IMG/VR virus record: IMGVR_UViG_3300034102_000810
Location: 1 to 28,317 of that record
Length of the DNA stretch: 28,317 nucleotides
Reading direction: 5' to 3' (one strand)
From: a virus
The notes below the pieces were generated by a model. It did no database searches. It saw nothing but the letters and a program-made list of their open reading frames with translations, and was not told where the DNA came from. Positions 1,599-18,646 of the stretch are shown piece after piece. The translations under genes and the position numbers were made by a program. Position 1 is the stretch's first letter; each line of letters opens with the position of its first letter.

Positions 1599-1606
1599 CT
1601 AAATAT

Positions 1607-1693
1607 GGAGAGGTGTCCGAGTGGTTTAAGGAGCAGACCTGGAAAGTCTGTGTGGAGGTAACTTCACCGAGGGTTCGAATCCCTCCTTCTCCG
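1607..1693 (+). tRNA. tRNA-Ser(GGA)
   Basis: Class II cloverleaf of 87 nt. The acceptor is GGAGAGG/CTTCTCC with discriminator G. The anticodon arm is CAGAC-CTGGAAA-GTCTG and the T loop is TTCGAAT. The long variable arm fits serine. CCA is not encoded. It is the first gene of the array and sits at the start of a consensus promoter transcript. Confidence 0.93.
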
Positions 1694-1722
1694 TTGACAA
1701 TCCAACCTTTTAATGGTATGAT
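1694..1722 (+). promoter_or_regulatory. Sigma70 promoter abutting the end of tRNA-Ser(GGA)
   Basis: TTGACA (1694-1699) begins at the base after the tRNA discriminator. A 17-nt spacer leads to TATGAT (1717-1722), 8 nt before tRNA-Arg. Confidence 0.8.
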
Positions 1723-1730
1723 TGTCTTAT

Positions 1731-1804
1731 GTCTCAGTAACTCAGTGGAATAGAGTATCCGCCTTCTAAGCGGTTAGTCGTTGGTTCGAATCCAACCTGA
1801 GACG
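1731..1804 (+). tRNA. tRNA-Arg(TCT)
   Basis: The acceptor GTCTCAG/CTGAGAC is fully paired, with discriminator G. The anticodon loop CTTCTAA gives TCT, which reads AGA and AGG. The outermost anticodon-stem pair is a T-T mismatch. It has its own promoter immediately upstream. Confidence 0.92.
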
Positions 1805-1805
1805 C

Positions 1806-1836
1806 TTGACTTTTTGAGAAAAAAGTCTTATAAATA
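1806..1836 (+). promoter_or_regulatory. Composite early (sigma70) and late (TATAAATA) promoter
   Basis: TTGACT (1806-1811), a 17-nt spacer and TATAAA (1829-1834) form a sigma70 promoter. The same bases extended to 1836 spell TATAAATA, the perfect T4-type late core. The element begins one base after tRNA-Arg and lies 22 nt upstream of a small ORF. Confidence 0.6.
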
Positions 1837-1857
1837 AAAACACTTAGGTCGAAAACA

Positions 1858-1956
1858 ATGTCTTATCCAATGCCCAAACAGTTTACCATTCTTGATTGCC
1901 TCTATTGGCATATCGAGGGTGCTCCCCTGTTTGCAGATATGGATAGACATATGTAA
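1858..1956 (+). CDS. Micro-protein of 32 aa, unknown
   Basis: The ORF runs ATG 1858 to TAA 1954-1956. The product starts MSYPMPKQFTILDCLYWHIEG. There is no clear Shine-Dalgarno sequence. It stands alone between a composite early/late promoter and a good intrinsic terminator, and that complete transcription unit is the main reason to believe it. I recognise no family. Confidence 0.45.
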   Translation: MSYPMPKQFTILDCLYWHIEGAPLFADMDRHM

Positions 1957-1984
1957 GATGTTTAATTCATAAAAGCAAAAGACA

Positions 1985-2018
1985 GGGGAGAGAAACCAAA
2001 AGTTTTCTCCCCTTTTTT
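1985..2018 (+). terminator. Intrinsic terminator after the 32-aa ORF
   Basis: GGGGAGA pairs with TCTCCCC (stem ends at 2012) and is followed by TTTTTT. It closes the short transcription unit that starts at 1806-1836 and separates the first two tRNA genes from the rest of the array. Confidence 0.8.
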
Positions 2019-2129
2019 ATTGCCTGTGACAGTTTCCTAAGTGTCCACCAACCTTCTCCCAAAGATCAAACGGTGGTATTCTTAAAGGGTGGTTGAGAGA
2101 CCACCAGCACCTTGAAAATTTAATTCCAT
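2019..2129. other. Spacer with a 6-bp hairpin, no gene seen
   Basis: No start-to-stop frame of note. GGTGGT (2088-2093) and ACCACC (2100-2105) form a perfect 6-bp hairpin with no T-run, 25 nt before tRNA-Lys. GACA and TGTC halves near 2029-2043 form an imperfect second hairpin. No convincing promoter for tRNA-Lys is visible. Confidence 0.4.
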
Positions 2130-2202
2130 GGGTATGTAACTCAGTTGGTAGAGTAGCGGGCTTTTAACCTGTAAGTCGTCGGTTCGAACCCGACCATACC
2201 CA
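2130..2202 (+). tRNA. tRNA-Lys(TTT)
   Basis: The acceptor GGGTATG/CATACCC is perfect, with discriminator A. The anticodon loop is CTTTTAA and the T arm is GTCGG-TTCGAAC-CCGAC. All arms are canonical and CCA is not encoded. Confidence 0.95.
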
Positions 2203-2230
2203 TTGACCGCCGCAGTTCGGTCATTAAATA
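2203..2230 (+). promoter_or_regulatory. Possible weak promoter for tRNA-Tyr
   Basis: TTGACC (2203-2208) starts one base after tRNA-Lys. A 16-nt spacer leads to TAAATA (2225-2230). The position repeats the pattern of a -35 box abutting a tRNA 3' end, but the -10 box is poor. A GACCG/CGGTC hairpin lies in the spacer. Confidence 0.3.
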
Positions 2231-2241
2231 TAAACTGTTCT

Positions 2242-2323
2242 GGGAGGATTTCCGAGTGGTTAAAGGAATCTGACTGTAAATCAGACGGCTCTGCCTTCAC
2301 AGGTTCAAATCCTGTTCCTCCCA
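2242..2323 (+). tRNA. tRNA-Tyr(GTA)
   Basis: Class II cloverleaf of 82 nt. The acceptor is GGGAGGA/TCCTCCC with discriminator A. The anticodon arm is TCTGA-CTGTAAA-TCAGA, with a long variable arm as expected for bacterial tyrosine tRNA. Confidence 0.94.
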
Positions 2324-2327
2324 CCTT

Positions 2328-2401
2328 GACCCATTAGTGTAGCGGTCTATCACGCCACCCTGTCACGGTGGAAATCACGGGTTCGAATCCCGTATGGGTC
2401 G
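2328..2401 (+). tRNA. tRNA-Asp(GTC)
   Basis: The acceptor is GACCCAT/ATGGGTC with discriminator G. The anticodon arm is CCACC-CTGTCAC-GGTGG. It lies only 4 nt after tRNA-Tyr, so the two are probably co-transcribed and separated by host RNases. Confidence 0.94.
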
Positions 2402-2470
2402 TTGAAGGTAAGGAAAGCAAAAGGAGCATGGGAACCAGAAATGGAGATACCGCACCTGCCTTCAAAACAA

Positions 2471-2542
2471 GTTCCTATCGACTAGCGGTTAGGTCACCAC
2501 CCTTTCAAGGTGGCAGCACGGGTTCGAATCCCGTTAGGAATA
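2471..2542 (+). tRNA. tRNA-Glu(TTC) with encoded CCA
   Basis: The acceptor is GTTCCTA/TAGGAAT (first pair G-T) with discriminator A. The anticodon arm is CCACC-CTTTCAA-GGTGG. CCA is encoded at 2543-2545, which most tRNAs of this array lack. The 69-nt spacer before it is purine-rich and holds no obvious gene. Confidence 0.9.
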
Positions 2543-2546
2543 CCAA

Positions 2547-2620
2547 CGGAATGTAGCTCAGTTTGGTAGAGCACTCGCTTTGGGAGCGAGATGTCGCAGG
2601 TTCGAATCCTGTCATTCCGA
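2547..2620 (+). tRNA. tRNA-Pro(TGG), first copy, with encoded CCA
   Basis: The acceptor is CGGAATG/CATTCCG with discriminator A. The anticodon arm is CTCGC-TTTGGGA-GCGAG. CCA is encoded at 2621-2623. A second, different tRNA-Pro(TGG) lies at 10583. Confidence 0.94.
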
Positions 2621-2623
2621 CCA

Positions 2624-2696
2624 CGGGAGGTAGCTCAGATGGTAGAGCACGGGATTGAAGATCCTGGTGTCGGTGGTTCAATTCCACCCCTTTCGA
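2624..2696 (+). tRNA. tRNA-Phe(GAA)
   Basis: It starts at the base after the encoded CCA of tRNA-Pro. The acceptor CGGGAGG/CCTTTCG contains two G-T pairs. The anticodon arm is CGGGA-TTGAAGA-TCCTG and the T loop is TTCAATT. CCA is not encoded. Confidence 0.9.
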
Positions 2697-2698
2697 CT

Positions 2699-2829
2699 TG
2701 GGTTGCTGCCCGATATGAGAAACACTCCTGTATTTCTAGGATACGGTAGGGTGAAAACTCGGAATTACCTCTGCCCCGTCTCTTGGGGATGCGAATTGAG
2801 GAAAGGTAAAGGGAAGAGACAGCAACCCA
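2699..2829 (+). ncRNA. Candidate structured RNA between tRNA-Phe and tRNA-Ile
   Basis: A 10-bp perfect stem (2699-2708 with 2820-2829) closes a 131-nt element that fits no tRNA. Inside are CCGA/TCGG (2710-2713 with 2759-2762) closing a sub-domain with AGAAA/TTTCT, and a CCCC/GGGG hairpin (2774-2777 with 2785-2788). The loop of that hairpin, GTCTCTT, is complementary to AAGAGAC at 2814-2820, so a pseudoknot is possible (base 2820 is shared with the outer stem). Phage T4 also carries stable non-tRNA RNAs in its tRNA cluster (its RNAs C and D). The function here is unknown and the folding was done by eye. Confidence 0.45.
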
Positions 2830-2833
2830 TATT

Positions 2834-2905
2834 GGAATCGTAGCTCAGTGGTAGAGCACTCGGCTGATAACCGAGCGGTCACAAGTTCAAATCTTGTCGG
2901 TTCCA
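2834..2905 (+). tRNA. tRNA-Ile(GAT)
   Basis: The acceptor is GGAATCG/CGGTTCC with discriminator A. The anticodon arm is CTCGG-CTGATAA-CCGAG. It lies four bases after the closing stem of the structured element at 2699-2829. Confidence 0.94.
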
Positions 2906-3017
2906 CTCTGGTGAGCCTTAGTCCATCTGAGGAAAAAAGTCTTAGGATCTAGTCAATCTTTAGAGACAAGTATTCCAACAAGGAGAATAAAGGTAGGGGA
3001 ATGACTATCCCCTTTAT
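2906..3017. other. Non-tRNA spacer with two hairpins
   Basis: No coding frame stands out. CCTTAG/CTGAGG (2916-2921 with 2927-2932) is followed by an A-run, and AGGGGA/TCCCCT (2995-3000 with 3008-3013) lies just before tRNA-Met. Neither has a U-tract. The spacer could be a processing signal or part of a small RNA, but nothing decides this. Confidence 0.35.
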
Positions 3018-3089
3018 GGCAGTGTAGTTCAGTGGTAGAACAAGAGATTCATACCCTCTATGTCGGTAGTTCAATTCTACCCACTGCCT
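3018..3089 (+). tRNA. tRNA with CAT anticodon (Met or lysidine-type Ile)
   Basis: The acceptor is GGCAGTG/CACTGCC with discriminator T. The anticodon loop TTCATAC gives CAT, and the innermost anticodon-stem pair is A-C. Whether it is Met or an Ile2 read through lysidine modification cannot be told from sequence. A second CAT tRNA is at 10947. Confidence 0.85.
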
Positions 3090-3090
3090 T

Positions 3091-3162
3091 GTGTCGTTAG
3101 CCTAGTGGTCAAGGCATCTGTTTGTGAAACAGAGGAGATGAGTTCAATTCTCATACGACACC
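3091..3162 (+). tRNA. tRNA-His(GTG)
   Basis: The acceptor is GTGTCGT/ACGACAC with C73. The anticodon arm is TCTGT-TTGTGAA-ACAGA. The position before the first acceptor base (3090) is T, whereas bacterial tRNA-His normally encodes G there as an identity element. It lies one nt after the preceding tRNA. Confidence 0.9.
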
Positions 3163-3164
3163 CC

Positions 3165-3238
3165 GCCCGATTAGCTCAGTGGTCTAGAGCAATTGTCTAG
3201 TAAACAATAGGTCGTCAGTTCAAATCTGACATTGGGCT
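3165..3238 (+). tRNA. tRNA-Thr with AGT anticodon
   Basis: The acceptor is GCCCGAT/ATTGGGC with discriminator T. The anticodon arm is ATTGT-CTAGTAA-ACAAT, so loop positions 34-36 are A-G-T. An unmodified or inosine A34 in threonine tRNA is rare in bacteria, where A34 is mostly confined to Arg(ACG). The rest of the cloverleaf is sound. Confidence 0.85.
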
Positions 3239-3242
3239 CTTA

Positions 3243-3318
3243 GTTCAGGTGGCAGAGTGGTCGAATGCAGAAGTCTGCAAAACTTCTATCATCGTGGGTT
3301 CGAATCCCACCCTGAACT
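3243..3318 (+). tRNA. tRNA-Cys(GCA)
   Basis: The acceptor is GTTCAGG/CCTGAAC with discriminator T, the usual cysteine identity base. The anticodon arm is GAAGT-CTGCAAA-ACTTC and the T arm is GTGGG-TTCGAAT-CCCAC. Confidence 0.92.
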
Positions 3319-3323
3319 CCTAT

Positions 3324-3394
3324 TGAGAAATCGTCTAATGGTAGGACACCTCCCTTTGAAGGAGTTTATCTAGGTTCGAGTCCTAGTTTCTCAG
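3324..3394 (+). tRNA. tRNA-Gln(TTG) with encoded CCA
   Basis: The acceptor is TGAGAAA/TTTCTCA with discriminator G. The anticodon arm is CCTCC-CTTTGAA-GGAGT. CCA is encoded at 3395-3397, after which tRNA-Trp begins at once. Confidence 0.9.
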
Positions 3395-3397
3395 CCA

Positions 3398-3469
3398 GTT
3401 GGGTTGGTCTAATGGTAAGATGCAGGTCTCCAAAACCTTGCGATGGGGGTTCGAATCCCTCACCCTTCG
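3398..3469 (+). tRNA. tRNA-Trp(CCA) with mismatched acceptor stem
   Basis: The anticodon arm is CAGGT-CTCCAAA-ACCTT, the T loop is TTCGAAT and the discriminator is G, as expected for tryptophan. The acceptor GTTGGGT/ACCCTTC has two T-T mismatches at pairs 2 and 3, so charging or processing may be weak. Confidence 0.78.
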
Positions 3470-3472
3470 CCT

Positions 3473-3546
3473 GTCCTTTTAGCTCAGTGGAAAAGAGCAG
3501 TAGGCTACGAACCTATGTGTCGGGAGTTCGAATCTCTCAAAGGACG
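3473..3546 (+). tRNA. tRNA-Arg(ACG)
   Basis: The acceptor is GTCCTTT/AAAGGAC with discriminator G. The anticodon arm is GTAGG-CTACGAA-CCTAT. ACG is the normal inosine-modified bacterial arginine anticodon and would complement the Arg(TCT) at 1731. Confidence 0.94.
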
Positions 3547-3547
3547 C

Positions 3548-3576
3548 TTGACAAACTCTTCAGAGTTTGTTACTAT
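3548..3576 (+). promoter_or_regulatory. Sigma70 promoter with a palindrome filling the spacer
   Basis: TTGACA (3548-3553), a 17-nt spacer and TACTAT (3571-3576). ACAAACTCTTCAGAGTTTGT (3551-3570) is a 9-bp perfect inverted repeat with a 2-nt centre. It occupies the spacer and overlaps the -35 box, so it could be an operator. The promoter would drive tRNA-Asn and the structured segment downstream. Confidence 0.72.
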
Positions 3577-3637
3577 ATAAAGAGATAGAGGTTAAGACAC
3601 TGTTCGTTCTTGAGGCGTATCACTCTTAATCCATCAT

Positions 3638-3709
3638 TCCCTTGTAGCTCAGCGGTAGAGTCGTCGGCTGTTAACCGATTTGTCGCAAGTTCGAATCTTG
3701 CCGGGGGAG
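3638..3709 (+). tRNA. tRNA-Asn(GTT)
   Basis: The acceptor TCCCTTG/CGGGGGA includes two G-T pairs, with discriminator G as usual for asparagine. The anticodon loop is CTGTTAA and the T arm is GCAAG-TTCGAAT-CTTGC. Confidence 0.92.
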
Positions 3710-3711
3710 TT

Positions 3712-3876
3712 GGAAGGTCTGGAAATGTTCGGATCTTCCTCTAAATCCTAAGTTCGCTTAGGTCGGGGACTTGATCACCCCCGTTCGTAGGTGCCAAAAC
3801 CGCTCCTCATCCCGAGTATTCTGTGGGTGAGTGAATGTCAAGAGTGGGGACATAGGTAAAGTCCTCAACGCCTACC
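3712..3876 (+). ncRNA. Candidate multi-hairpin RNA between tRNA-Asn and a tRNA-like remnant
   Basis: Six helices can be drawn by eye without conflict. They are 3712-3719 with 3732-3739 (8 bp); 3747-3752 with 3757-3762, closing a TTCG tetraloop; 3764-3768 with 3779-3783; and 3787-3793 with 3869-3875 (7 bp). The last of these encloses 3806-3813 with 3825-3831 (7 bp, one bulge) and 3846-3851 with 3861-3866 (6 bp). Such density is unusual for a spacer and suggests a stable RNA transcribed from the promoter at 3548. No coding frame fits. It does not resemble RNase P RNA, tmRNA or 6S RNA in anything I can recognise. Confidence 0.5.
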
Positions 3877-3880
3877 ACAA

Positions 3881-3952
3881 CCTCTGGTAGTCTATTGGTA
3901 AGGACAGGTGGACAACACACATGGAAACTGGGTTCGATTCCTAGACAGAGGA
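3881..3952 (+). pseudogene. Degenerate tRNA-like element
   Basis: The acceptor CCTCTGG/ACAGAGG has 6 of 7 pairs, the discriminator is A, the D arm is GTCT/GGAC and the T arm CTGGG-TTCGATT-CCTAG is good. The middle fails: 3907-3923 gives no five-pair anticodon stem, and any seven-base loop lacks T33. The nominal anticodon in standard register would be AAC (Val). It is probably a decayed tRNA, or a tRNA-shaped RNA kept for another reason. Confidence 0.65.
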
Positions 3953-3956
3953 ACAA

Positions 3957-4038
3957 GTCGATGTGGCGGAATTGGTAGACGCGCTGGGTTTAGGTTCCAG
4001 TGTCTTTAGACGTGGGGGTTCAAGTCCCTTCATCGATA
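3957..4038 (+). tRNA. tRNA-Leu(TAG)
   Basis: Class II cloverleaf of 82 nt. The acceptor is GTCGATG/CATCGAT with discriminator A. The anticodon arm is CTGGG-TTTAGGT-TCCAG, and a long variable arm is present (TGTCTTTAGACGT). It is the only leucine tRNA seen here. Confidence 0.93.
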
Positions 4039-4039
4039 C

Positions 4040-4068
4040 TTGACAATTGAAACTATATAGTTTATAAT
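4040..4068 (+). promoter_or_regulatory. Perfect consensus sigma70 promoter
   Basis: TTGACA (4040-4045), a 17-nt spacer and TATAAT (4063-4068) match the consensus at all 12 positions. It starts two bases after tRNA-Leu and points at tRNA-Gly, tRNA-Val and the gene at 4241. Confidence 0.9.
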
Positions 4069-4076
4069 TGTCTCAT

Positions 4077-4148
4077 GCGGAATTAGTTCAGTGGTAGAAC
4101 GCCATCCTTCCAAGTTGGATGTCACCGGTTCGAATCCGGTATTCCGCT
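4077..4148 (+). tRNA. tRNA-Gly(TCC)
   Basis: The acceptor is GCGGAAT/ATTCCGC with discriminator T. The anticodon loop CTTCCAA gives TCC. The stem CCATC/GTTGG has one T-T mismatch. It lies 8 nt after a perfect promoter. Confidence 0.92.
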
Positions 4149-4151
4149 CTT

Positions 4152-4223
4152 GGGCGATTAACTCAGCGGTAGAGTGGCCTCCTTACAAGTGGTAAGTCAC
4201 TGGTTCGATTCCAGTATCGCCCA
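4152..4223 (+). tRNA. tRNA-Val(TAC)
   Basis: The acceptor is GGGCGAT/ATCGCCC with discriminator A. The anticodon loop CTTACAA gives TAC. The stem GCCTC/GTGGT has one T-T mismatch and one G-T pair. It is the last tRNA of the main array, 17 nt before the next protein gene. Confidence 0.92.
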
Positions 4224-4240
4224 TTATTAAGATACAAAGA

Positions 4241-5194
4241 ATGGATATTAATGTTTATGATAAACTTGGTGATGTAGTTAAATCTATCAATCTTGAAGAC
4301 TCTATTGAATATGTTGATGGTAGAGTATACAAAGGAGACAAATTTTACTACAAAGGTATAGGAATTCCATATCAGTTTCATCATATTCATCCGGATGATA
4401 TGTCGGATGAATATGATTTTATTGATGTATGTGATGTTTTCTACATTGGTAATTTAGTTTCGAAAAAAGTCTTCGCAGGAAAGACTGGAATATTTCAAGA
4501 AAAATATCAAACTCATTTTACCGATTGGATTGGTGCTTGTGGTATAAAGGAACTCAACATATTTGAAAATTTATATGATGAGAGTGGATTTGAATTCAGT
4601 GCAATTGAAGTTTTTGAATATCAAATTATTGATGAACAAAATCAACAATATTATTTGAAGGTTGATTATCCAGAAGGTAGAAATAATTACTTAACGAGTC
4701 CTGATCCAAAAAAACTTAGGCTTCTTTTGGACTATATGATTCAAAATGATTGGAACTTTCCTTGGGATAAAAATTGTCTTACAGATATTAACTCAGAATC
4801 TAAAATAACTGACGTAGCTGATATCTTTAAGTCCTCAGATATTTCTCATAAGATTGGAACAGTTTATGCTTTGTTGCATAGTCTTTATCAAAATGATCAA
4901 AATGCATACTTTGAATTTTGTGAATCAAATTCTTTAATGCACTATAATAGAATGAGTTTTATTCTTAATACTCTTTCTATTCTTCAATATAATAATGTAG
5001 ATGTTAGTCATTTATATTCAACAACTCCGGTTGAAACTTATAAAAATATAATTTATAATTACTTGATTACTGGAAAAAATTGTGGTTTCTGTGGGGTTGG
5101 TAGTTGTAAAGGAAGAAAGGATTCTAATCAATCTTATGGTGAGGAAATTCGAAACGAATATATTAAAATGGCTAAAGTTCAATTGAACTTATAA
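4241..5194 (+). CDS. Unknown 317-aa protein with a C-terminal CxxC cluster
   Basis: I do not recognise this protein. It is soluble and acidic, with no signal peptide or membrane segment. The N-terminal half is rich in aromatic and acidic residues (FHHIHPDD near 47-54). The second half reads as helical. The C-terminal region has a KNCGFCGVGSCKGRK motif with three cysteines that could bind metal. Its composition is AT-rich, with strong T and A bias at third positions, more so than the neighbouring metabolic genes. It follows the tRNA array directly and is likely read from the perfect promoter at 4040. It could be a cargo or moron gene. Confidence 0.75.
   Translation: MDINVYDKLGDVVKSINLEDSIEYVDGRVYKGDKFYYKGIGIPYQFHHIHPDDMSDEYDFIDVCDVFYIGNLVSKKVFAGKTGIFQEKYQTHFTDWIGACGIKELNIFENLYDESGFEFSAIEVFEYQIIDEQNQQYYLKVDYPEGRNNYLTSPDPKKLRLLLDYMIQNDWNFPWDKNCLTDINSESKITDVADIFKSSDISHKIGTVYALLHSLYQNDQNAYFEFCESNSLMHYNRMSFILNTLSILQYNNVDVSHLYSTTPVETYKNIIYNYLITGKNCGFCGVGSCKGRKDSNQSYGEEIRNEYIKMAKVQLNL
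5175..5190. repeat. 16-bp perfect palindrome adjoining a late promoter
   Basis: AAGTTCAATTGAACTT reads the same on both strands. Its last base is the first base of the TATAAATA late core at 5190-5197, and it lies in the final codons of the 317-aa gene. It is a plausible protein-binding site. Confidence 0.7.
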
Positions 5195-7125: not shown

Positions 7126-7791
7126 ATGAAGATTTTTTTAGATACTGCTGATGTTTCTTTTATTAAATCAGCATATGAAACGGGTTTATTGGATGGAGTC
7201 ACTACAAATCCATCACTTATTTTAAAAAGCGGAAGACAACTTTTGGAGGTTATTCAAGAGATTGCATCAGATTTTCCAGATTTACAAAGCATTTCTGCAG
7301 AGGTTGTTGCCGATACAGCAGAAGAAATGCTTTCGCAGGCACAACATTATTTTACAATCGCACCTGCTGTTACAATTAAAGTTCCTTGCACAGTAGAAGG
7401 ACTTAAAGTTTGTAAGACACTTTCCGATAAAGGAATTAAAGTTAATGTAACTCTTGTGTTCTCAGTCGCTCAGGCAATTCTTGCATCAAAGGCAGGAGCA
7501 ACATTTATCTCACCTTTCGTTGGTCGTTGGATGGATAATTCAATTGATGGAATTGAACTTATCAAGAACATTCGTAAGGCATTTGATTACTCGGGAACAT
7601 CCACTCAGATTCTTGCAGCATCTCTTCGTGATGTAAGACAGGTAGAACAATCTGCTCTTTCTGGTGCTGATGTAGTTACAATTCCTCCCATTGTATTCTG
7701 GGCAATGTATAAGAACATTATGACTGATAAGGGTCTGGAACTCTTTCAGAAGGATTGGGAAGAAGTGTTGAATTCTGTTAATAAGAAGTGA
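7126..7791 (+). CDS. talC: Transaldolase TalC
   Basis: 221 residues, the usual length of the short TalC/fructose-6-phosphate-aldolase-like class found in cyanophages. The N-terminus MKIFLDTADV, TTNPS (26-30) and the Schiff-base lysine in VTIKVP (Lys85) are all present. Transaldolase exchanges three-carbon units between pentose-phosphate intermediates. In infected cyanobacteria, phage talC is known to help steer carbon from the Calvin cycle to the pentose phosphate pathway for NADPH and nucleotide precursors. A good ribosome-binding site (GGGAGAGG) precedes it. Its stop overlaps the GTG start of zwf by 3 bases (shared GTGA), so these genes form an operon with gnd. Confidence 0.95.
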   Translation: MKIFLDTADVSFIKSAYETGLLDGVTTNPSLILKSGRQLLEVIQEIASDFPDLQSISAEVVADTAEEMLSQAQHYFTIAPAVTIKVPCTVEGLKVCKTLSDKGIKVNVTLVFSVAQAILASKAGATFISPFVGRWMDNSIDGIELIKNIRKAFDYSGTSTQILAASLRDVRQVEQSALSGADVVTIPPIVFWAMYKNIMTDKGLELFQKDWEEVLNSVNKK

Positions 7792-9119
7792 AAAATATTG
7801 TAATCTTTGGTGCAACGGGAGACTTGTGCCGTAGGAAACTTATACCAGCACTTTATACTCTTCATAAGAAAAATCTTTTACCAAAAGGATTAAAAATTAT
7901 TGGAGCTTCCAGAACTAATCATTCTAAAGAAAGTTGGGTGGAAGTATTGGGAAGTTATTCCCAAGAGTTTATTAAGAGACTTGAATATGTTCCTTGTGAT
8001 TTAAGTGATTCAGAATCCCTTAAATTATTGGAATCCTATGAAGACACAACTTATTTTCTTTCTGTTCCACCAGAAAGATATGCTGATGCTATTACAAACC
8101 TAAAAGAAGCAGGTAAGTTAGATGACGCAGAAAAATCAAGAGTCATTATTGAGAAACCTTTTGGCACCGATCTTCAATCTGCTAATTATCTACAATCTGT
8201 GGTGGCTGGATATTTACGGGAAAAACAAGTATATCGCATTGACCATTATCTCGGTAAAGATACTGTTAATAATATCCTTGCCACCCGCTTTAGCAATATA
8301 TTATTGGAACCACTTTGGAACAGGAACTTTATAGAAGAAGTCCAAATCTTTGCAACTGAAACAATTGGTTGCGAAGGTCGTGCCCAGTATTATGATACTG
8401 CTGGTGCCGTAAGAGATATGCTTCAAAACCATATGCTTCAGGTGCTTGCACTAATTGCAATGGAACCTCCTTGTAAAAATGATGCTAAAGAAATTCGCAG
8501 AGAAAAGGTTAAGGTTCTTGCCGCAACTAGACTTGGTGATAATGTAGTTCTCGGTCAATATGATGGATATAAAGGTGAAGATGGAGTAAATCCAGATTCA
8601 CAGACTCCAACTTTTGTTGCGGGTGATCTTTATATTGATAACTGGAGATGGAAAGGGGTTCCATTTCACTTTATGACAGGTAAAAAGATGCCTGTGAATT
8701 GTGTTGAGGTTGTAATTAAATTTAAGTCTCCACCACAACAATTATTTGATGGACACGAATGCAACGATAGAATTGTAATGAGATTGCAACCAGATCCACA
8801 TTTGGATATGCGTATTGACATCAAATCTCCTGGACTAAATGATAATGTAGAATCAGCAATTCTTCAGTATCATTATCCAGTAGAAAAAGCAATTGATGGT
8901 TATGTAAAACTTTTTTATGATGCAATAAATGAGGATCAATCCCACTTTGTCCATGCTGATGAAGTGTTAGAGTCTTGGAGAATTGTTGATGATCTTTTAT
9001 GTACTGGAGATCAATGTCGCATTATGACAATGCCATATCTTTATAATGAAGGTGTTTGGGGGCCTTCATCTAAAACAGAACTTGTTACAAAGTGGGACTA
9101 TCCACTTAAATTAAAATAG
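7788..9119 (+). CDS. zwf: Glucose-6-phosphate 1-dehydrogenase
   Basis: 443 residues against roughly 500 for the bacterial enzyme. The dinucleotide-binding GATGDL (8-13), EKPFG (122-126) and the active-site motif RIDHYLGKD (150-158) are intact, with D replacing the usual final E. The enzyme oxidises glucose-6-phosphate to 6-phosphogluconolactone and reduces NADP+. It starts with GTG inside the talC stop, so translation is probably coupled. With gnd it forms the oxidative branch that makes two NADPH per hexose. It is shorter than cellular homologues, as is typical for phage metabolic genes. Confidence 0.95.
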   Translation: MKNIVIFGATGDLCRRKLIPALYTLHKKNLLPKGLKIIGASRTNHSKESWVEVLGSYSQEFIKRLEYVPCDLSDSESLKLLESYEDTTYFLSVPPERYADAITNLKEAGKLDDAEKSRVIIEKPFGTDLQSANYLQSVVAGYLREKQVYRIDHYLGKDTVNNILATRFSNILLEPLWNRNFIEEVQIFATETIGCEGRAQYYDTAGAVRDMLQNHMLQVLALIAMEPPCKNDAKEIRREKVKVLAATRLGDNVVLGQYDGYKGEDGVNPDSQTPTFVAGDLYIDNWRWKGVPFHFMTGKKMPVNCVEVVIKFKSPPQQLFDGHECNDRIVMRLQPDPHLDMRIDIKSPGLNDNVESAILQYHYPVEKAIDGYVKLFYDAINEDQSHFVHADEVLESWRIVDDLLCTGDQCRIMTMPYLYNEGVWGPSSKTELVTKWDYPLKLK

Positions 9120-9128
9120 GAGTAAAAA

Positions 9129-10154
9129 ATGAAAGTAGGATTAATTGGACTGGGTAGAATGGGCGAAGGTATGTCTCGCCGTATGATGAAGGCAGGAATA
9201 GAAGTTTGGGGTTATCGCAGAAACTATGAAAAAGCACAAGAAGCATTTGAAAACGGATATGTTAACGGTGTTACAACTTCTATACAAAGCCTTGTTCAAG
9301 TAGTAAAAAATGGTGGCACTCAACCAGGTATTTTTCAGATGGTTGTACCTGCTGAAACTGTAGAGGAGACGATTAATGAACTACTACGATATTGTGGTGA
9401 AGGAGATATTATTATTGATCATGGCAATAGCAATTTTAAGGACAGTCGGAAGAGAGCAGAACGCCTGGCAAAGGTTGGCATCCAATATATTGATTGTGGC
9501 ACTAGCGGCGGTGTTTATGGTCTGGATCGTGGATACTGTCTTATGGTTGGTGGCGGAGATACTGCGGTCTCCACTTGTTCAAGCATTTTTAATGCCCTCT
9601 CCCCAGGAATTGACGCTGCCCCCAGGACTCAATTTGACTCGGACATAACTTCTGCTGAATATGGATGGTTGCATTGTGGTGGTCCAGGTGCAGGACATTT
9701 TGTAAAGATGGTGCATAATGGCATTGAATATGGTATAATGCAAGCATACGCAGAGGGATTTAACATCATCAAAAACTCTAATGCAGGTGCTCAGTATGTT
9801 AGAGAAGGTGACGCAGAGGTTGCCCCGATGGCAGACCCAGAATCCTATTGCTATGACATTGACGTTGCTGAGGTTGCTGAGTTATGGCGTCGTGGTAGTG
9901 TGGTTGGGTCTTGGTTACTTGATCTTACTGCTGATGTGTTACGCAGGGATGGTAGCCTTAAACAATTCTCTGGAGGGGTTTCCGACAGCGGTGAGGGTCG
10001 TTGGACTGTTTCTGCCGCTGTGGACCTTGGTGTACCCGCTCCTGTCATTACTACTGCCCTTTATGAAAGATTTAATAGTCGCAATCTGGGTACTTTCGCA
10101 TCCAAGGTTCTAAACGGAATGCGTTACATGTTTGGTGGACATCACGTAAGATAG
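9129..10154 (+). CDS. gnd: 6-phosphogluconate dehydrogenase (decarboxylating)
   Basis: 341 residues, well below the ~470 of the classical cellular enzyme and similar to the short class. The N-terminal Rossmann motif GLGRMGEGM (7-15), CGTSGGVYG (123-131) and the catalytic block GPGAGHFVKMVHNGIEYG (185-202, with Lys193 and Asn197) are present. It converts 6-phosphogluconate to ribulose-5-phosphate with NADPH release. It starts 9 nt after zwf with an AGGAG ribosome-binding site. The reading frame at 9700-10100 is richer in G and C than zwf, perhaps reflecting separate origin. Confidence 0.95.
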   Translation: MKVGLIGLGRMGEGMSRRMMKAGIEVWGYRRNYEKAQEAFENGYVNGVTTSIQSLVQVVKNGGTQPGIFQMVVPAETVEETINELLRYCGEGDIIIDHGNSNFKDSRKRAERLAKVGIQYIDCGTSGGVYGLDRGYCLMVGGGDTAVSTCSSIFNALSPGIDAAPRTQFDSDITSAEYGWLHCGGPGAGHFVKMVHNGIEYGIMQAYAEGFNIIKNSNAGAQYVREGDAEVAPMADPESYCYDIDVAEVAELWRRGSVVGSWLLDLTADVLRRDGSLKQFSGGVSDSGEGRWTVSAAVDLGVPAPVITTALYERFNSRNLGTFASKVLNGMRYMFGGHHVR

Positions 10155-11848: not shown

Positions 11849-11985
11849 AACCAAGTGGTGGAGTCAAATTTGACCCCTTATGTCCTCGTCGGATGGACAT
11901 TAAATATGCCGACTGGTGTGGATGGGGAAACCCCGCCGAGTTTCCAATTTTCTCGTACTCAAAATTGGTGGCGAGCCTGAGTTTC
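11849..11985. other. Structured intergenic segment with possible micro-ORF
   Basis: CTTGGTTT/AAACCAAG (11836-11843 with 11848-11855) is a perfect hairpin that spills over from the gene end. GTCAAATTTGAC (11863-11874) is a 12-bp palindrome, ATGTCC/GGACAT form another hairpin near 11879-11899, and GGGG-AAA-CCCC follows. A 24-codon frame (ATG 11906 to TGA 11980, starting MPTGVDGETPPSFQF) reads like real protein but lacks a ribosome-binding site. A second frame through the same bases is also open. The segment could be a leader or small RNA ending at the terminator at 12012. Confidence 0.35.
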
Positions 11986-12681: not shown

Positions 12682-13743
12682 ATGAGTCAATACATTAAGA
12701 AGGCACTTGTGCTTGGTGCCGGTGGCTTTATTGGAAGTCATATGGTTAAGAGGTTGCGATCCGAAGGATATTGGGTTCGTGGTGTAGACCTCAAAAGACC
12801 TGAGTATTCTCCTACTGAAGCAAATGAATTCGTCCAGGGAGATCTTCGTGACGTAGATTTTGTTCGTCGTGTCCTTGAATATAAAGGTGATCGCGGAAAC
12901 TTTTATCAGTCGGTTCCTTATCGTTATATTCAATCGTTTGATGAGATCTATCAGTTTGCTGCTGATATGGGTGGCGCAGGATTTGTATTTACTGGTGAAA
13001 ATGATGCAGACATCATGCATAATTCTGTGACAATTAATCTCAATGTTCTGGAAATGCAACATCAGATGAATGAAAGAGTTGGTAAAAATATTACCAAAAT
13101 TTTCTATTCTGGATCTGCTTGTATGTATCCAGAACATAATCAACTAGATCCCAATAATCCTGATTGCCGTGAAGAATCTGCTTACCCTGCCAACCCAGAT
13201 TCGGAATATGGTTGGGAAAAACTCTTTTCTGAAAGACTATACTTCGCATATCATAGGAATTACGGTATACCTGTTCGTGTATCTCGGTATCATAATATCT
13301 TTGGCCCCGAAGGAACCTGGGAAGGTGGTCGTGAAAAAGCCCCCGCAGCAATCTGTCGCAAAGTCGCATATCTCCCAGAGGAAGGTGGAGCAATCGAGGT
13401 GTGGGGAGATGGCTTACAAACTCGTTCCTTCCTGTATATTGACGAATGCATCGAGGCAACCCGTAGAATGATGAACTCGGAGTTCATTGGACCAGTAAAT
13501 ATTGGTTCTGAGGAAATGGTAACAATCAATCAACTAGTTGAGACCGCTGCTAAGGTTTCTGGTAAAGAAGTTAAAAAACAACATAAACTTGATGCACCTC
13601 TTGGAGTCCGTGGACGTAACTCCAATAACGATGTGGTTCGTAGAGAACTTGGTTGGGATTACTCGCAAACCCTAGAAGAAGGTATTCGTAAGACATACGC
13701 ATGGATTTCTGAACAAATTGCTAAGAAGAATAATGAAAATTGA
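12682..13743 (+). CDS. GDP-mannose 3,5-epimerase (GME-type)
   Basis: 353 residues, close to the plant and bacterial enzyme. The Rossmann motif GAGGFIG (12-18) binds NAD. The block ADMGG (94-98), SGSACMYPE (143-151), YGWEK (176-180), HNIFGPEGTWEGGREKAPAA (204-223) and WGDGLQTRSF (241-250) are GME hallmarks. The catalytic Cys147, Tyr176, Lys180 and Lys219 line up with Cys145, Tyr174, Lys178 and Lys217 of the Arabidopsis enzyme with a constant offset of two. GME converts GDP-D-mannose to GDP-L-galactose or GDP-L-gulose. It is first in the glycan operon, so it probably sets which activated sugar the downstream fucosyltransferase-fold enzymes receive. GDP-mannose would come from the host. Confidence 0.9.
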   Translation: MSQYIKKALVLGAGGFIGSHMVKRLRSEGYWVRGVDLKRPEYSPTEANEFVQGDLRDVDFVRRVLEYKGDRGNFYQSVPYRYIQSFDEIYQFAADMGGAGFVFTGENDADIMHNSVTINLNVLEMQHQMNERVGKNITKIFYSGSACMYPEHNQLDPNNPDCREESAYPANPDSEYGWEKLFSERLYFAYHRNYGIPVRVSRYHNIFGPEGTWEGGREKAPAAICRKVAYLPEEGGAIEVWGDGLQTRSFLYIDECIEATRRMMNSEFIGPVNIGSEEMVTINQLVETAAKVSGKEVKKQHKLDAPLGVRGRNSNNDVVRRELGWDYSQTLEEGIRKTYAWISEQIAKKNNEN

Positions 13744-14302
13744 AATTATTAAAGAACATGTAAAAAATCTGGAAGTTGGTCATCTTAGAGATATGTCTCT
13801 AAATCAAAATGACTGGTTACCTGCAGGACAAAGTGAGTATAGATTGTATGCTTATCTCTCTACGTTTTTCAATAGGAGTACTATTTTGGACATTGGTACT
13901 CGTACTGGTGGGTCCGCTCTTGCACTTTCTTATAATCCAACTAACCAAGTAATCAGTTATGACTTGGTAGAACAAGGTGCGGGTTCTATCGAAAAAGAAA
14001 ATATTACTTGGAAGATTCAAGATTTCATGGAAGATGAAACTCTTGATTGGGATAATATTTCAATTGTTATGATTGATGTAGATCCACACGATGGTTCTCA
14101 AGAACGTGTTATGATGAATTGGCTACGTGATAAGGGTTGGAAAGGTATCATGATTCATGATGATATTGGTCCTGGTTGGCCTGATATTCAACTGATGTGG
14201 GATGAGATCCCTGAAGAAAAGTTTGATGTTACTGAGATTGCCCATATGAGTGGCACTGGTATTGTCAACTTTGGAAACGCACACGAAATTAGTATTGTCT
14301 GA
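13733..14302 (+). CDS. Class I SAM-dependent methyltransferase-like protein
   Basis: ATG 13733 (overlapping the GME gene by 11 nt) is preferred to an earlier in-frame TTG at 13718, and gives 189 residues. Motif I is ILDIGTRTGGSA (51-62), followed by the acidic end of strand 2 (ISYDL). IVMIDVDPHDG (111-121) is the post-II region, and a distinctive IHDDIGPGWP follows (141-150). The metal-like Asp pair and overall layout resemble cephalosporin-hydroxylase or TylF-type sugar O-methyltransferases. In this operon it may methylate a sugar. Its stop overlaps the next start (TGATG). Substrate unknown. Confidence 0.7.
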   Translation: MKIEIIKEHVKNLEVGHLRDMSLNQNDWLPAGQSEYRLYAYLSTFFNRSTILDIGTRTGGSALALSYNPTNQVISYDLVEQGAGSIEKENITWKIQDFMEDETLDWDNISIVMIDVDPHDGSQERVMMNWLRDKGWKGIMIHDDIGPGWPDIQLMWDEIPEEKFDVTEIAHMSGTGIVNFGNAHEISIV

Positions 14303-15159
14303 TGAAAATTACAGTACTTGGATCTAGTGGGCAAATCGGTGCCTATTTAACAGACTATTTGCGTAAAAAGGGACACTATGTTTACGAGTTTGATGTCGTA
14401 AATAATCCTCACGAGGATATGACTTTAATTCCAAATCTTCTTTTGGAAGAAAGAATTGCAGATTCTGATTTTGTATTCTTCCTTGCATTTGATGTTGGTG
14501 GATCTCGTTATCTCAAGAAGTATCAACATACTTTCCAATTCATTGATAACAATGGTCGTTTGATGGTCAATGCATTTGGACTTCTTAAAAAATATAACAA
14601 GAGGTTTATTTTTGCATCATCTCAGATGAGTAATATGAGTTATTCTCCATATGGAGTTCTCAAGAATGTTGGTGAACTTTATACCAAGTCATTGAATGGA
14701 TTGATTGTTAAGTTTTGGAATGTTTATGGAATTGAAAAGGACCACGAAAAATCCCATGTCATTACGGACTTCATCCGTAAAGGTTTTGAAACTGGCGTTA
14801 TTGACATGCTTACTGATGGCCAAGAAGAAAGAGAGTTTCTATACGCAGAAGACTGTTGCGAAGCACTTGAAACAATCATGGAAAACTACGACGATTTTAC
14901 TCCTGAAGACAATCTTCACATCACCAGTTTCCACTCTACAAAGGTCATTGATATTGCGAGCATGATTTGTGGCCAATTTAATTTGATTGGTAAGTATGAT
15001 GTTAAGGTCAAACCATCAATTGAAAAAGATAGTGTTCAACTTGATAAGAGAAACAGACCAGATACCTATTTGATGAAGTGGTGGACTCCTAAAACTACAA
15101 TTGAACAAGGAATTGCTAGAGTATTTGAGGCAATGAAGAATGAACAAGTTCAAAATTAA
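14302..15159 (+). CDS. SDR-type NAD-dependent sugar epimerase/dehydratase
   Basis: 285 residues of the extended short-chain dehydrogenase family. The nucleotide-binding motif GSSGQIG (7-13) and the catalytic set Ser106-Ser107 with Tyr117-x3-Lys121 (SPYGVLK) are present. EREFLYAEDCCEAL is the usual C-terminal domain signature. It probably acts on a nucleotide sugar, as an epimerase, reductase or dehydratase. It might reduce or isomerise the GME product, but the reaction cannot be assigned. It overlaps its neighbours by 1 nt upstream and 20 nt downstream, so it is part of the operon. Confidence 0.8.
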   Translation: MKITVLGSSGQIGAYLTDYLRKKGHYVYEFDVVNNPHEDMTLIPNLLLEERIADSDFVFFLAFDVGGSRYLKKYQHTFQFIDNNGRLMVNAFGLLKKYNKRFIFASSQMSNMSYSPYGVLKNVGELYTKSLNGLIVKFWNVYGIEKDHEKSHVITDFIRKGFETGVIDMLTDGQEEREFLYAEDCCEALETIMENYDDFTPEDNLHITSFHSTKVIDIASMICGQFNLIGKYDVKVKPSIEKDSVQLDKRNRPDTYLMKWWTPKTTIEQGIARVFEAMKNEQVQN

Positions 15160-15940
15160 TCTCTATTGTAACGATTCTCTCCTCCCATCTACTTCAGATA
15201 AAAATACTTCTAAGTATACTGAATGGGTTTATGATGGATCTGGTCAAGTAAGTCTTTATGTAAATCAAAGATCACTTGATATTTTTCAAGATGTCTCTAC
15301 TACACCAAAGTACATTTGGCTTCTTGAATCTAAACAAGTTATTCAAGGAGTTTATGATTGGATTCTTGCAAACTATGATTTTGTTGCTTCCAGAGTAGAT
15401 GGTATTCTTTCCCCAGATAAAGAACTTTGTGAAAAGTATCCCAAGTTTCAATATGCACTAACTAATGCAACTCCATGGATTGAGGATCGTCAAATTTATG
15501 AAAAGACAAAACTTGTGTCTATGATCTCATCAAATAAATCTATGGTGCCTGGACACCGAAAACGACTTGAATTTGTGAATAAGTTTAAAGATCAAGTTCA
15601 TCTTTATGGTCGTGGATTCCGTGATCTTGAGAGGAAAGAAGATGGCATGAAAGACTACATGTTCTCTATTGCAGTAGAGAATGCCGTCTATGATACATAC
15701 TTTACAGAGAAACTAACTGATTGTTTCGCAACAGGGACAATCCCCATCTTCTATGGTTGTAGGGGAGTTACTGAGTATTTCAACGAGGATGGTATCATAT
15801 TCTTGGATGATGACTTTGATGTTTCTACATTGACAGAAGAACTTTATTATTCTAAAATGGATGCGATTAAAGATAACTTTGAACGCGCAAACAATCTGCC
15901 AGTGGCAGAAGATTACCTCTACGAAACTTACTGGAAATGA
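15140..15940 (+). CDS. GT10-like fucosyltransferase-fold glycosyltransferase
   Basis: 266 residues. The C-terminal half carries the GT10 signature: VSMISSNK (126-133), HLYGRGF (154-160), FSIAVEN (175-181) and YFTEKLTDCFATGTIPIFYG (187-206), where the conserved Glu-Lys contacts the GDP-sugar in the family. Known members transfer L-fucose from GDP-fucose in alpha-1,3/4 linkage. Downstream of a GDP-mannose epimerase it might use GDP-L-galactose instead. It has no membrane anchor, so it is cytoplasmic. Its start lies 20 nt inside the previous gene and its stop overlaps the next start. Confidence 0.8.
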   Translation: MNKFKINLYCNDSLLPSTSDKNTSKYTEWVYDGSGQVSLYVNQRSLDIFQDVSTTPKYIWLLESKQVIQGVYDWILANYDFVASRVDGILSPDKELCEKYPKFQYALTNATPWIEDRQIYEKTKLVSMISSNKSMVPGHRKRLEFVNKFKDQVHLYGRGFRDLERKEDGMKDYMFSIAVENAVYDTYFTEKLTDCFATGTIPIFYGCRGVTEYFNEDGIIFLDDDFDVSTLTEELYYSKMDAIKDNFERANNLPVAEDYLYETYWK

Positions 15941-16716
15941 GTACTTATAAAGGCTGGGAAGCAGAAGAACAGATTGCGGTTGATTATCTTGAGACTTGTC
16001 GTAGTGCAGTTGAAGATGATGAAGTCTTTGCAAAATTTAAATCACTTCAAGCATATAAAAATATTCTTGAACATGTAACTCCTCGTCAAGGGGCAGAATA
16101 TCTTCAAATTGCCATGGAAATGGCTGAAGATGGTCTACTTGAAAATCTTGAGAAGTTTAAAGAGAATGATCTTATCGGAACCCCCGATAGGTTCTCTTAT
16201 CCAGAAACGGGTAAAATTTCTCCAACCACAATCAGATACATTAAAAATATATTTGAGATGGCGACTCTCATTGGGGAATCTCCAATTAGTCGTGTAGTGG
16301 AAGTTGGTGGTGGATATGGTGGACTCTGTAAGACCTTAAGTGTGGTCTGTGATTTTGATGAGTATATTTTAGTAGATCTTCCTGAAGCGGTTAAAGTTCA
16401 AGAAAAGTATCTTAAGAACTTTCCAGAACTTCATGCAAAGTGTAAGTTTGTAAGTTGCGATGATCTTGAAGAAGTTAAAGATGTAGATCTTTTTATCAGT
16501 AACTATGCACTTTCTGAGTGTGATTATGATACTCAAGTCAAGTACTATAATAAATTAGTTGCAGATTCTAAGTTTGCTTACATCATTTACAACCTTGTCA
16601 ACTTTAACGATTTCTACTATAATAAGTTTACTGAAATGATGAGTGAATCATTTGAATTTACCACTAGTAAGGATTATGAAAACACTGTAATTCTCGCAAA
16701 GGCTAAGGAGTCATGA
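15937..16716 (+). CDS. Putative sugar O-methyltransferase
   Basis: 259 residues. A helical N-terminal part leads to VVEVGGGYGGL (120-130), a glycine-rich SAM-binding motif I of the form seen in putative sugar O-methyltransferases of surface-polysaccharide clusters (NanM-like). Then come ILVDLPEAV, CKFVSCDDL and FISNYALSECD. The operon setting supports methylation of a glycan residue, such as a non-reducing terminal sugar. The gene overlaps both neighbours by 4 nt. The acceptor is unknown. Confidence 0.78.
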   Translation: MSTYKGWEAEEQIAVDYLETCRSAVEDDEVFAKFKSLQAYKNILEHVTPRQGAEYLQIAMEMAEDGLLENLEKFKENDLIGTPDRFSYPETGKISPTTIRYIKNIFEMATLIGESPISRVVEVGGGYGGLCKTLSVVCDFDEYILVDLPEAVKVQEKYLKNFPELHAKCKFVSCDDLEEVKDVDLFISNYALSECDYDTQVKYYNKLVADSKFAYIIYNLVNFNDFYYNKFTEMMSESFEFTTSKDYENTVILAKAKES

Positions 16717-17504
16717 ACCGTATTGGAGACTATGGTGATCTGGAAGATCGCATTGTTAAGTGGATTTCAGATTATTGCATTACACACCCTAAAATTAAAA
16801 GTCTTGTAGTAGGAATCTCTGGAGGTATTGATTCCTCTGTGGTTTCTACTCTTTGTGCTTTGACTGGTATGCCAACTTATGTTGTTGGAATGCCAATCAA
16901 TCAACTAGAAAATCAGGAATCTCTTTCTGATGCTCATGGAGAATGGCTTACTAAAAAATTTAACAATGTTGAATTTATTAAAACAGACATGAGTAAGGTA
17001 TATGATTCTTTTTTGCAAACGGTCTCTTCAGACTTAGGAGAACAGTTCGCAATTAATAAACTTGCACAGGCCAATACTCGTTCTCGTCTTCGGATGATAA
17101 CTCTTTACCAAATTGCCGGAACTGTCAATGGTATTGTTGTGGGTACAGGTAATAAGGTTGAGGACTATGGTGTAGGTTTCTATACCAAGTATGGTGATGG
17201 CGGTATTGATATTGCACCTATTGCTGATCTTTATAAGACTGAAGTGTGGATGCTTGGTGAATATCTTGGTGTAGATGAACGAATCATTTCTGCACCTCCC
17301 ACAGATGGTCTTTGGGATGATGGTCGTACCGATGAAGATCAGATTGGAGCTTCTTACGCAATGCTTGAATGGGTTATGGAAAAGGGTCTTCAAGAAGATC
17401 CTTTGTTCTTGAATGAAGAACAGAGTAATGCTATTAATGTATATCAGAAGTTTCACACACAAAACAAACATAAGATGGTAGAAATTCCGACATTCAAACT
17501 ATGA
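16713..17504 (+). CDS. nadE: NH3-dependent NAD+ synthetase
   Basis: 263 residues, the normal size of ammonia-dependent NadE. The ATP-pyrophosphatase P-loop SGGIDSS (36-42), GTGNKVED (144-151) and the NAD-site block DIAPIADLYKTEV (166-178) are present. NadE adenylates and amidates nicotinic acid adenine dinucleotide to give NAD+. It has no glutaminase domain, so it uses ammonia. Its place in a glycan operon, directly before a UDP-sugar dehydrogenase that would consume two NAD+ per turnover, suggests cofactor supply. A role as amidotransferase on sugars cannot be excluded, although the NadE motifs are intact. It overlaps both neighbours by 4 nt. Confidence 0.9.
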   Translation: MNRIGDYGDLEDRIVKWISDYCITHPKIKSLVVGISGGIDSSVVSTLCALTGMPTYVVGMPINQLENQESLSDAHGEWLTKKFNNVEFIKTDMSKVYDSFLQTVSSDLGEQFAINKLAQANTRSRLRMITLYQIAGTVNGIVVGTGNKVEDYGVGFYTKYGDGGIDIAPIADLYKTEVWMLGEYLGVDERIISAPPTDGLWDDGRTDEDQIGASYAMLEWVMEKGLQEDPLFLNEEQSNAINVYQKFHTQNKHKMVEIPTFKL

Positions 17505-18646
17505 AAATTGGACTTATTGGCGCAGGAAGACTAGGAATTTGTCTTGCACTTCTTATGGAGAATGCAGGATATGATGTTCTTGTCTCCGATATTCGTGAGG
17601 ATTATGTGGAAAACCTCAATAAAAAAATCATTTCTAGTACAGAACCATTTGTACAAGAACATCTAAAACAGGCTAAGTATATTGAAGCCACTACTGATAA
17701 CAAAAAAGTTATTAGAGAATGTGATATTATCTTTACTTTAGTTGCAACTCCATCTTTGGATGATGGTTCTTATGATGTAAGTTCTGTATGGAATGTTGTT
17801 CGTGATTTCCAAGAATCACCAGATGTGGAAGGAAAAACTCTTGTGGTTGGATGTACTACAAATCCAGGAGATTGTTCAAGGTTTCAAGAACAACTTAAAT
17901 CATATGGTGTGAGTGTGATTTACAACCCAGAATTTATTGCACAGGGATCTATTATTAGAGATCTTACTCATGCAGATATGGTTTTGCTTGGTGGAGATAA
18001 TTCCGAAGTTTTGGAAACTCTTTCTCAAATGTATAAGAAAATTCAAGTCAATAAACCAATCATTTCTGTTATGTCATCCACATCTGCGGAAATAGTTAAG
18101 ATTGCAATTAATTGTTATATGACAACTAAAATTAGTTTTGCAAATATGATTGGAGAGGTTCTAGTTCTTTCTGGACTTGAAAATGAAATAGAGGATGTTC
18201 TTTCGTCAATTGCAAGTGATAGTAGAATCGGAAGTAAATATTTGAGATATGGATTTGGATTTGGTGGACCTTGTTTACCCAGAGATAATAGGGCTTTTGG
18301 TAAATATGCAGAGAAACTAGGACTGAAATATAATTTGGGAAAAACAACTGACGATTTTAATAATGAACATGCAAAGTTCTTAAAAAATTACTTTATTAAT
18401 AAAAATACTAAGAACCTTCCATTCCACTTTGAATATATTTCATACAAGAAAGGAACTGATATCTTAACTGAAAGTCAACAATACAAACTTTGTCTTGACC
18501 TTTTGGAATCTGGATATGAAGTTTATGTATCTGATAACCCACATATTATTAAACAAGTGGAAGTCTTGTTAACTAATCAATATGGTGATAAAATACACTT
18601 TGGAGAGCCACCAGAAAAAATTAATACGTTTGCAATTAAATTATGA
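17501..18646 (+). CDS. UDP-glucose/GDP-mannose dehydrogenase family protein
   Basis: 381 residues. GLIGAGRLG (4-12) is the NAD site and CTTNPGD (118-124) corresponds to the usual T-x-P-G motif. NPEFIAQGSIIRD (142-154), Lys200 and Asn204, and the catalytic Cys258 in GFGGPCLPRD (253-262) complete the family set. The enzyme oxidises the C6 alcohol of a nucleotide sugar twice to the uronic acid. UDP-glucose to UDP-glucuronate is the commonest reaction, but GDP-mannose or another sugar is possible. It follows nadE with a 4-nt overlap. The product would be a charged sugar for the glycan assembled by the transferases downstream. Confidence 0.88.
   Translation: MKIGLIGAGRLGICLALLMENAGYDVLVSDIREDYVENLNKKIISSTEPFVQEHLKQAKYIEATTDNKKVIRECDIIFTLVATPSLDDGSYDVSSVWNVVRDFQESPDVEGKTLVVGCTTNPGDCSRFQEQLKSYGVSVIYNPEFIAQGSIIRDLTHADMVLLGGDNSEVLETLSQMYKKIQVNKPIISVMSSTSAEIVKIAINCYMTTKISFANMIGEVLVLSGLENEIEDVLSSIASDSRIGSKYLRYGFGFGGPCLPRDNRAFGKYAEKLGLKYNLGKTTDDFNNEHAKFLKNYFINKNTKNLPFHFEYISYKKGTDILTESQQYKLCLDLLESGYEVYVSDNPHIIKQVEVLLTNQYGDKIHFGEPPEKINTFAIKL

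Follow-up and report, generated by a model that had tools for sequence, protein, structure and literature searches.

RNAs C and D of phage T4 (rnaC, or species 1, and rnaD, or species 2) are noncoding RNAs beside the phage tRNA cluster. GOLLD and ROOL are phage RNAs that are often found near tRNA islands (PMC12286853). Two structured cyanophage RNAs, manA (RF01745) and wcaG (RF01761), occur mostly in potential 5' UTRs (PMC2864571). In C. difficile, the abiF RNA (RF03085) serves as an antitoxin to AbiF (PMC12373285).

We analyzed a 28,317-nucleotide stretch of viral DNA (IMG/VR record IMGVR_UViG_3300034102_000810), referred to here as the window. Its tRNA array runs from about 1606 to 4224, and further tRNAs follow up to 11020. 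The window also encodes a transaldolase, sugar-phosphate dehydrogenases, PhotoRC-II RNA, and wcaG RNA, a content consistent with a T4-like cyanophage. Immediately beyond the array, at 7126-10154, are the transaldolase and two pentose phosphate-type dehydrogenases. The wcaG RNA (11880-11982) is directly upstream of a run of nucleotide-sugar and glycosyltransferase genes (12682-19503) that includes epimerases, GT10, GT11, and a UDP-glucose dehydrogenase. This location is in line with the proposed link between wcaG and exopolysaccharide genes.

The array contains a newly described RNA element at 3711-3880, in the tRNA-adjacent position already known from T4 RNAs C and D, GOLLD, and ROOL. A search of openly accessible journal papers found no described equivalent. 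Rfam 15 gave no match in 3711-3880 at the gathering cut-off or at E values up to 5, and none for modules C2, C3, TLS2, I, K, G, and F in relatives.

Fold and conservation of the element

The plus strand of 3711-3880 has a minimum free energy (MFE) of -61.3 kcal/mol, compared with a mean of -46.5 kcal/mol (sd 4.0) for shuffled sequences (z -3.73). None of 200 shuffles folded as stably, and the minus strand was unremarkable (z -0.49). The first-pass annotation had described a dense set of helices of 5-8 bp in this region. These helices are present essentially as described, including the UUCG hairpin and a 7-bp stem around two hairpins, except that hairpin A reaches 12 bp. Its view that no coding frame fits also agrees with our analysis: there is no ORF of at least 60 aa across the stretch, and we rejected a protein-coding reading on this basis. 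An 8-codon ORF beginning at an AUG in hairpin A was dropped as well, since our reading of the alignment shows AUA at this position in some relatives.

The natural unit is 3711-3880, which is composed of three separable modules and has the adjoining TLS1 as a frequent partner (Table 1). Core module B begins with a single-stranded CUAAAU, followed by the UUCG hairpin (3747-3762; stem 3747-3752/3757-3762), one unpaired U, and a second hairpin (3764-3783; stem 3764-3768/3779-3783) with an invariant UUGAUC in its loop. Module C1 is built from helices P1 (3787-3793/3869-3875, 7 bp), P2 (3804-3812/3825-3834), and P3 (3845-3851/3861-3867); the inner pairing (P2 and P3) obtained by comparison differs partly from the window's own MFE structure. 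The UUGAUC loop of B and the unpaired CCAAAACC junction of C1 are near-invariant over many contigs.

Table 1. Positions of the element, its neighbors, and nearby signals in the window
Feature	Position	Strand	Remarks
Promoter-like site TTGACA-17-TACTAT, palindromic spacer	3548..3576	+	10/12 match; upstream of D, tRNA-Asn, and the element
Module D, conserved structured spacer between promoter-like site and tRNA-Asn	3580..3636	+	recurs in other arrays
tRNA-Asn (gtt)	3637..3710	+	usual upstream neighbor of module A
Module A, 12-bp hairpin 3712-3723/3728-3739	3711..3740	+	six pairs with both-side changes
Module B (core), two hairpins	3741..3783	+	near-invariant across contigs
Module C1, three-way junction	3787..3877	+	covariation, 53 sequences
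TLS1, tRNA-like RNA with acceptor, D, and T arms	3881..3952	+	weak tRNA-Leu(caa) call

Base changes among relatives were scored against 500 shuffled alignments. The results are to be read as counts and not as P-values (the A+B and C1 structures come from the same alignments that were scored, and the shuffles ignore relatedness): both sides changed at 8 pairs in the A+B alignment, compared with 2.9 in shuffles (0/500; 28 sequences, 98.7% of cells paired), and at 11 pairs in the C1 alignment, compared with 7.2 (0/500; 98.4% of cells paired). In A+B, these pairs fall in hairpin A and, in two cases, in the first B hairpin; the second B hairpin shows one-sided changes only. Both-side cells in C1 numbered 129, compared with 38.7 in shuffles. 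Sliding the pairing partners collapsed the covariation for A+B, C1, and TLS1 alike. The z-score and the covariation strongly support the earlier proposal that this cyanophage tRNA array contains a structured noncoding RNA. We regard it as virtually certain that T4-like cyanophages have a conserved, structured noncoding RNA at 3711-3880 and its equivalents.

The first-pass annotation had also placed a tRNA-like remnant downstream of the element. TLS1 is indeed tRNA-like, but it is a conserved RNA and not a remnant. The tRNA model barely reaches it (29.6 bits against a 29-bit cut-off), and its anticodon arm is shortened to 3 bp with a GACAA loop. All three of these pairs covary, which rules out a decayed tRNA. 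The 5-nt GACAA or GAUAA loop on this short stem, in place of a 5-bp stem and 7-nt loop, also sets TLS1 apart from decoding tRNAs. The TLS1 alignment (22 sequences, 98.7% paired) has 6 both-side pairs, compared with 2.9 in shuffles (2/500), and its covariation score was exceeded by 0/500. By BLAST, TLS1 occurs without A, B, or C1 in five isolates, DSL-LC03, S-RIM32, S-CREM1, S-RIM8, and S-SZBM1.

Exchange of modules among viral tRNA arrays

We compared the element to sequences from other phages and viral contigs. BLAST matched 35% of the query to S-PM2, an isolated cyanophage with a known host, at an unannotated site between tRNA-Thr and tRNA-Ala; this phage has A, B, and TLS1. BLAST also gave a short match in S-SRM01, where A is followed by C3-C3b-C2 without B. 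A pattern scan of IMG/VR matched at least 119 contigs, and no fewer than 98 loci, including the window and S-PM2, have the full core B pattern. A scan with a 15-base piece of C1 returned many true C1 sequences among the matches listed, the rest being chance. We counted modules over 173 oriented contigs that each carry two or more tRNAs: 126 have A, 119 have B, 88 have TLS1, and 86 have C1, figures that are biased by the fetching route (contigs were obtained through B or C1). The carriers of B, C1, and TLS1 are nearly all tRNA arrays of uncultured viruses, and tRNA-Asn is to the left of A in 108 of the 126 contigs with A.

The neighbors of each module vary. We recorded 26 arrangements around 61 distinct B elements, using a module list from domain clustering and reading that is non-exhaustive and in which several modules are based on few contigs. 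The arrangement tAsn-A-B-C1-TLS1 occurs in 11 elements, tAsn-A-A2-B-C2-tVal in 8, and tAsn-A-B-tThr in 4, and S-PM2 has tThr-A-B-C5-TLS1. C1 has at least 10 different left neighbors, including B, C2, P, TLS2, K, I, A, and D. A loop-loop pairing between A2 and B through GAUC, noticed by eye, was dropped because some A2 variants do not keep it. By sequence comparison, more than 100 related viral contigs bear the element or parts of it, variously combined and with base changes that preserve the predicted fold. Modules have very probably been exchanged between elements.

Other spaces in these arrays are also folded. In a sample of 100 nonredundant inter-tRNA spacers of 60-220 nt, drawn from contigs picked for B or C1, the mean z-score was -2.85 and 67% were below -2. 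Other DNA from these contigs had a mean of -0.63, with 14% below -2; the reverse complements of the spacers averaged -2.32. Module D has matches in 101 contigs (27 sequences; 5 both-side pairs, compared with 2.2 in shuffles, 0/500). Module J, a 136-nt spacer between tRNA-Phe and tRNA-Ile (window 2698-2833; -47.4 kcal/mol), is closed by GGGUUGCUG/CAGCAACCC and has relatives in 9 contigs. A C4-like spacer lies between tRNA-Asp and tRNA-Glu (window 2403-2470), and the same module follows B in contigs L031 and L055. Module F (GGGGUUCGGCUCUACCCC...AACAAAAGGGCCGCCA; L232:2380-2500, L233:2216-2319, L229:2575-2640) could, judged by eye, form an H-type pseudoknot.

Known RNAs are present in the same arrays. 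We found abiF RNA motifs among tRNAs at L003:4729-4765, L067:577-613, L231:3073-3109, and L233:2635-2671, manA together with wcaG in L231, and wcaG in L067 and L096. A permuted cyanobacterial tmRNA (RF01851; ARAGORN tag ANNIVAFSRSNTTALV) lies inside the viral tRNA array of L223 (1930-2230). The presence of known RNAs suggests that the arrays collect functional RNAs. Although phage tRNA arrays are commonly interpreted as a source of tRNAs, more than two dozen recurrent folded cassettes occupy the inter-tRNA spaces here. Should these RNAs be released and active, they would represent a store of phage functions that annotation based on proteins overlooks.

Proposed processing and function

A palindrome-containing promoter had been proposed upstream of the element, and a promoter-like site is present there (Table 1). 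Taken alone, this match is weak: the whole region has 17 such sites, compared with 10.6 +/- 3.3 in shuffles. Two contigs, L090 and L119, have a promoter-like site only 8 nt upstream of A, which suggests that a transcript can start with A. Another site in the window, at 4040-4068, is a perfect 12/12 match (TTGACA-17-TATAAT, palindromic spacer) before tRNA-Gly, and it recurs before tRNA-Gly in 71 contigs.

Nearly all elements begin about 3 nt or less from the end of the tRNA on their left, and most stop 3-5 nt short of the next tRNA or TLS1 on their right. The features 3' of elements are tRNAs or TLS1, with no protein genes. Such flush edges are needed for excision by tRNA-end processing, and compact packing alone could look identical. 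We propose that the element would be transcribed within the tRNA array, sometimes from its own promoter, and excised by the enzymes that trim the neighboring tRNAs ("tRNA punctuation"). The cuts would fall at the tRNA-Asn 3' end and, through RNase P, at the TLS1 5' end. The product would be a stable RNA of about 170 nt. We consider release by tRNA punctuation moderately probable.

The weakest step of this model is a role in trans, in which the RNA might bind a host protein and serve as a decoy or antitoxin-like RNA during host takeover or counter-defence. A protein-binding role in trans is a tentative suggestion, as is the complete model as far as action in trans, and counter-defence in particular is doubtful. 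The protein-binding, antitoxin-like RNA is our leading candidate function; this hypothesis stems mainly from the recurrence of abiF RNA in the same arrays, which is an association only. Type III antitoxins, which have a repeated motif upstream of a toxin gene, were a poor fit, as each module has one copy and is followed in the window by tRNA genes. PHROGs and Pfam scans identified no toxin gene beside the element. Exact B patterns gave 0 matches and 1 match in 84,980 cellular genomes; B was never beside a toxin gene in these scans, and no host RNA to mimic was identified. The single match, in a Pseudonocardia metagenome-assembled genome (MAG), lacks the first B hairpin and looks like chance, and on these exact-pattern scans we rejected host mimicry by B. 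For the candidate cassettes, counter-defence may be taken as a reasonable hypothesis, no more. A broader speculation, which we think unlikely in its full form, is that the arrays could be assembly lines of combinatorial noncoding RNAs: RNAs made of core B, exchangeable domains on its 5' and 3' sides, and a tRNA-like partner without a decoding role would be freed by tRNA punctuation, and phages would swap them, matching different host proteins or defences.

The main rival to counter-defence is antitermination. In this case, the element would act in cis on the array transcript, as an antitermination RNA or as a stability or processing spacer, and would have no separate product. The put RNA of phage HK022, the model for such an antitermination RNA, has two adjacent hairpins that act on RNA polymerase, and core B consists of two hairpins one nucleotide apart. 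A promoter-like site (at least 10/12) lies within 500 nt upstream of 62 of 79 distinct A copies, two of them at 8 nt, a raw count that includes any chance matches. A terminator-like site is present downstream of the element (4380-4417), but it falls within an ORF, and no T-run of five occurs from 3501 to 4240. C1 and TLS1 are also found without B, which an antiterminator based on B does not explain. We judge a purely cis-acting element to be unlikely.

Hairpin-rich cassettes could also spread by recombination at tRNA genes as a selfish or neutral mosaic, with folds kept to avoid tRNA misfolding. The free swapping of partners and the generality of structured spacers in such arrays agree with this idea, but neutral spacers would not keep the unpaired loop of B and junction of C1 near-invariant, and we find it improbable. 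The idea that decaying tRNAs and spacers merely fold by chance is contradicted by the covariation and the near-invariant loops over many contigs and has a negligible probability, even though partial tRNA-like stretches do exist in arrays.

Comparison with known RNAs

The element differs from each of the described systems. Although manA and wcaG can also sit among tRNAs, for example in S-CREM1, they are different families found mainly in potential 5' UTRs, whereas the element precedes a tRNA or TLS1. This position, outside the 5' UTR of any protein-coding gene, speaks against a riboswitch or cis-regulatory leader. The abiF RNA is a separate cassette that recurs in the same kind of array; the element is neither an abiF RNA nor an array of repeats. 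GOLLD (often >800 nt), which combines a conserved 3' portion with a variable 5' portion, and ROOL are RNA cages and much larger than the element, which has no Rfam match.

The first-pass annotation had compared the element to the stable RNAs of T4, as a possible cyanophage counterpart. On the T4 region, the A+B and C1 covariance models reached at best 6.6 and 7.5 bits (E 0.7 and 1.1), and over rnaC and rnaD themselves nothing except a 10-nt fragment of 2.1 bits. The analogy is one of place and not of sequence. rnaC is strongly folded (z -4.6) and has a T-arm-like hairpin at its end, recalling the TLS1 that is often 3' of the element. Whereas rnaC and rnaD lie at the end of their cluster, the element lies between tRNAs. 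If the RNAs of these arrays prove to be released and active, work on the role of T4 RNAs C and D and of other stable phage RNAs next to tRNAs would gain a family variable enough for mutation and pull-down tests.
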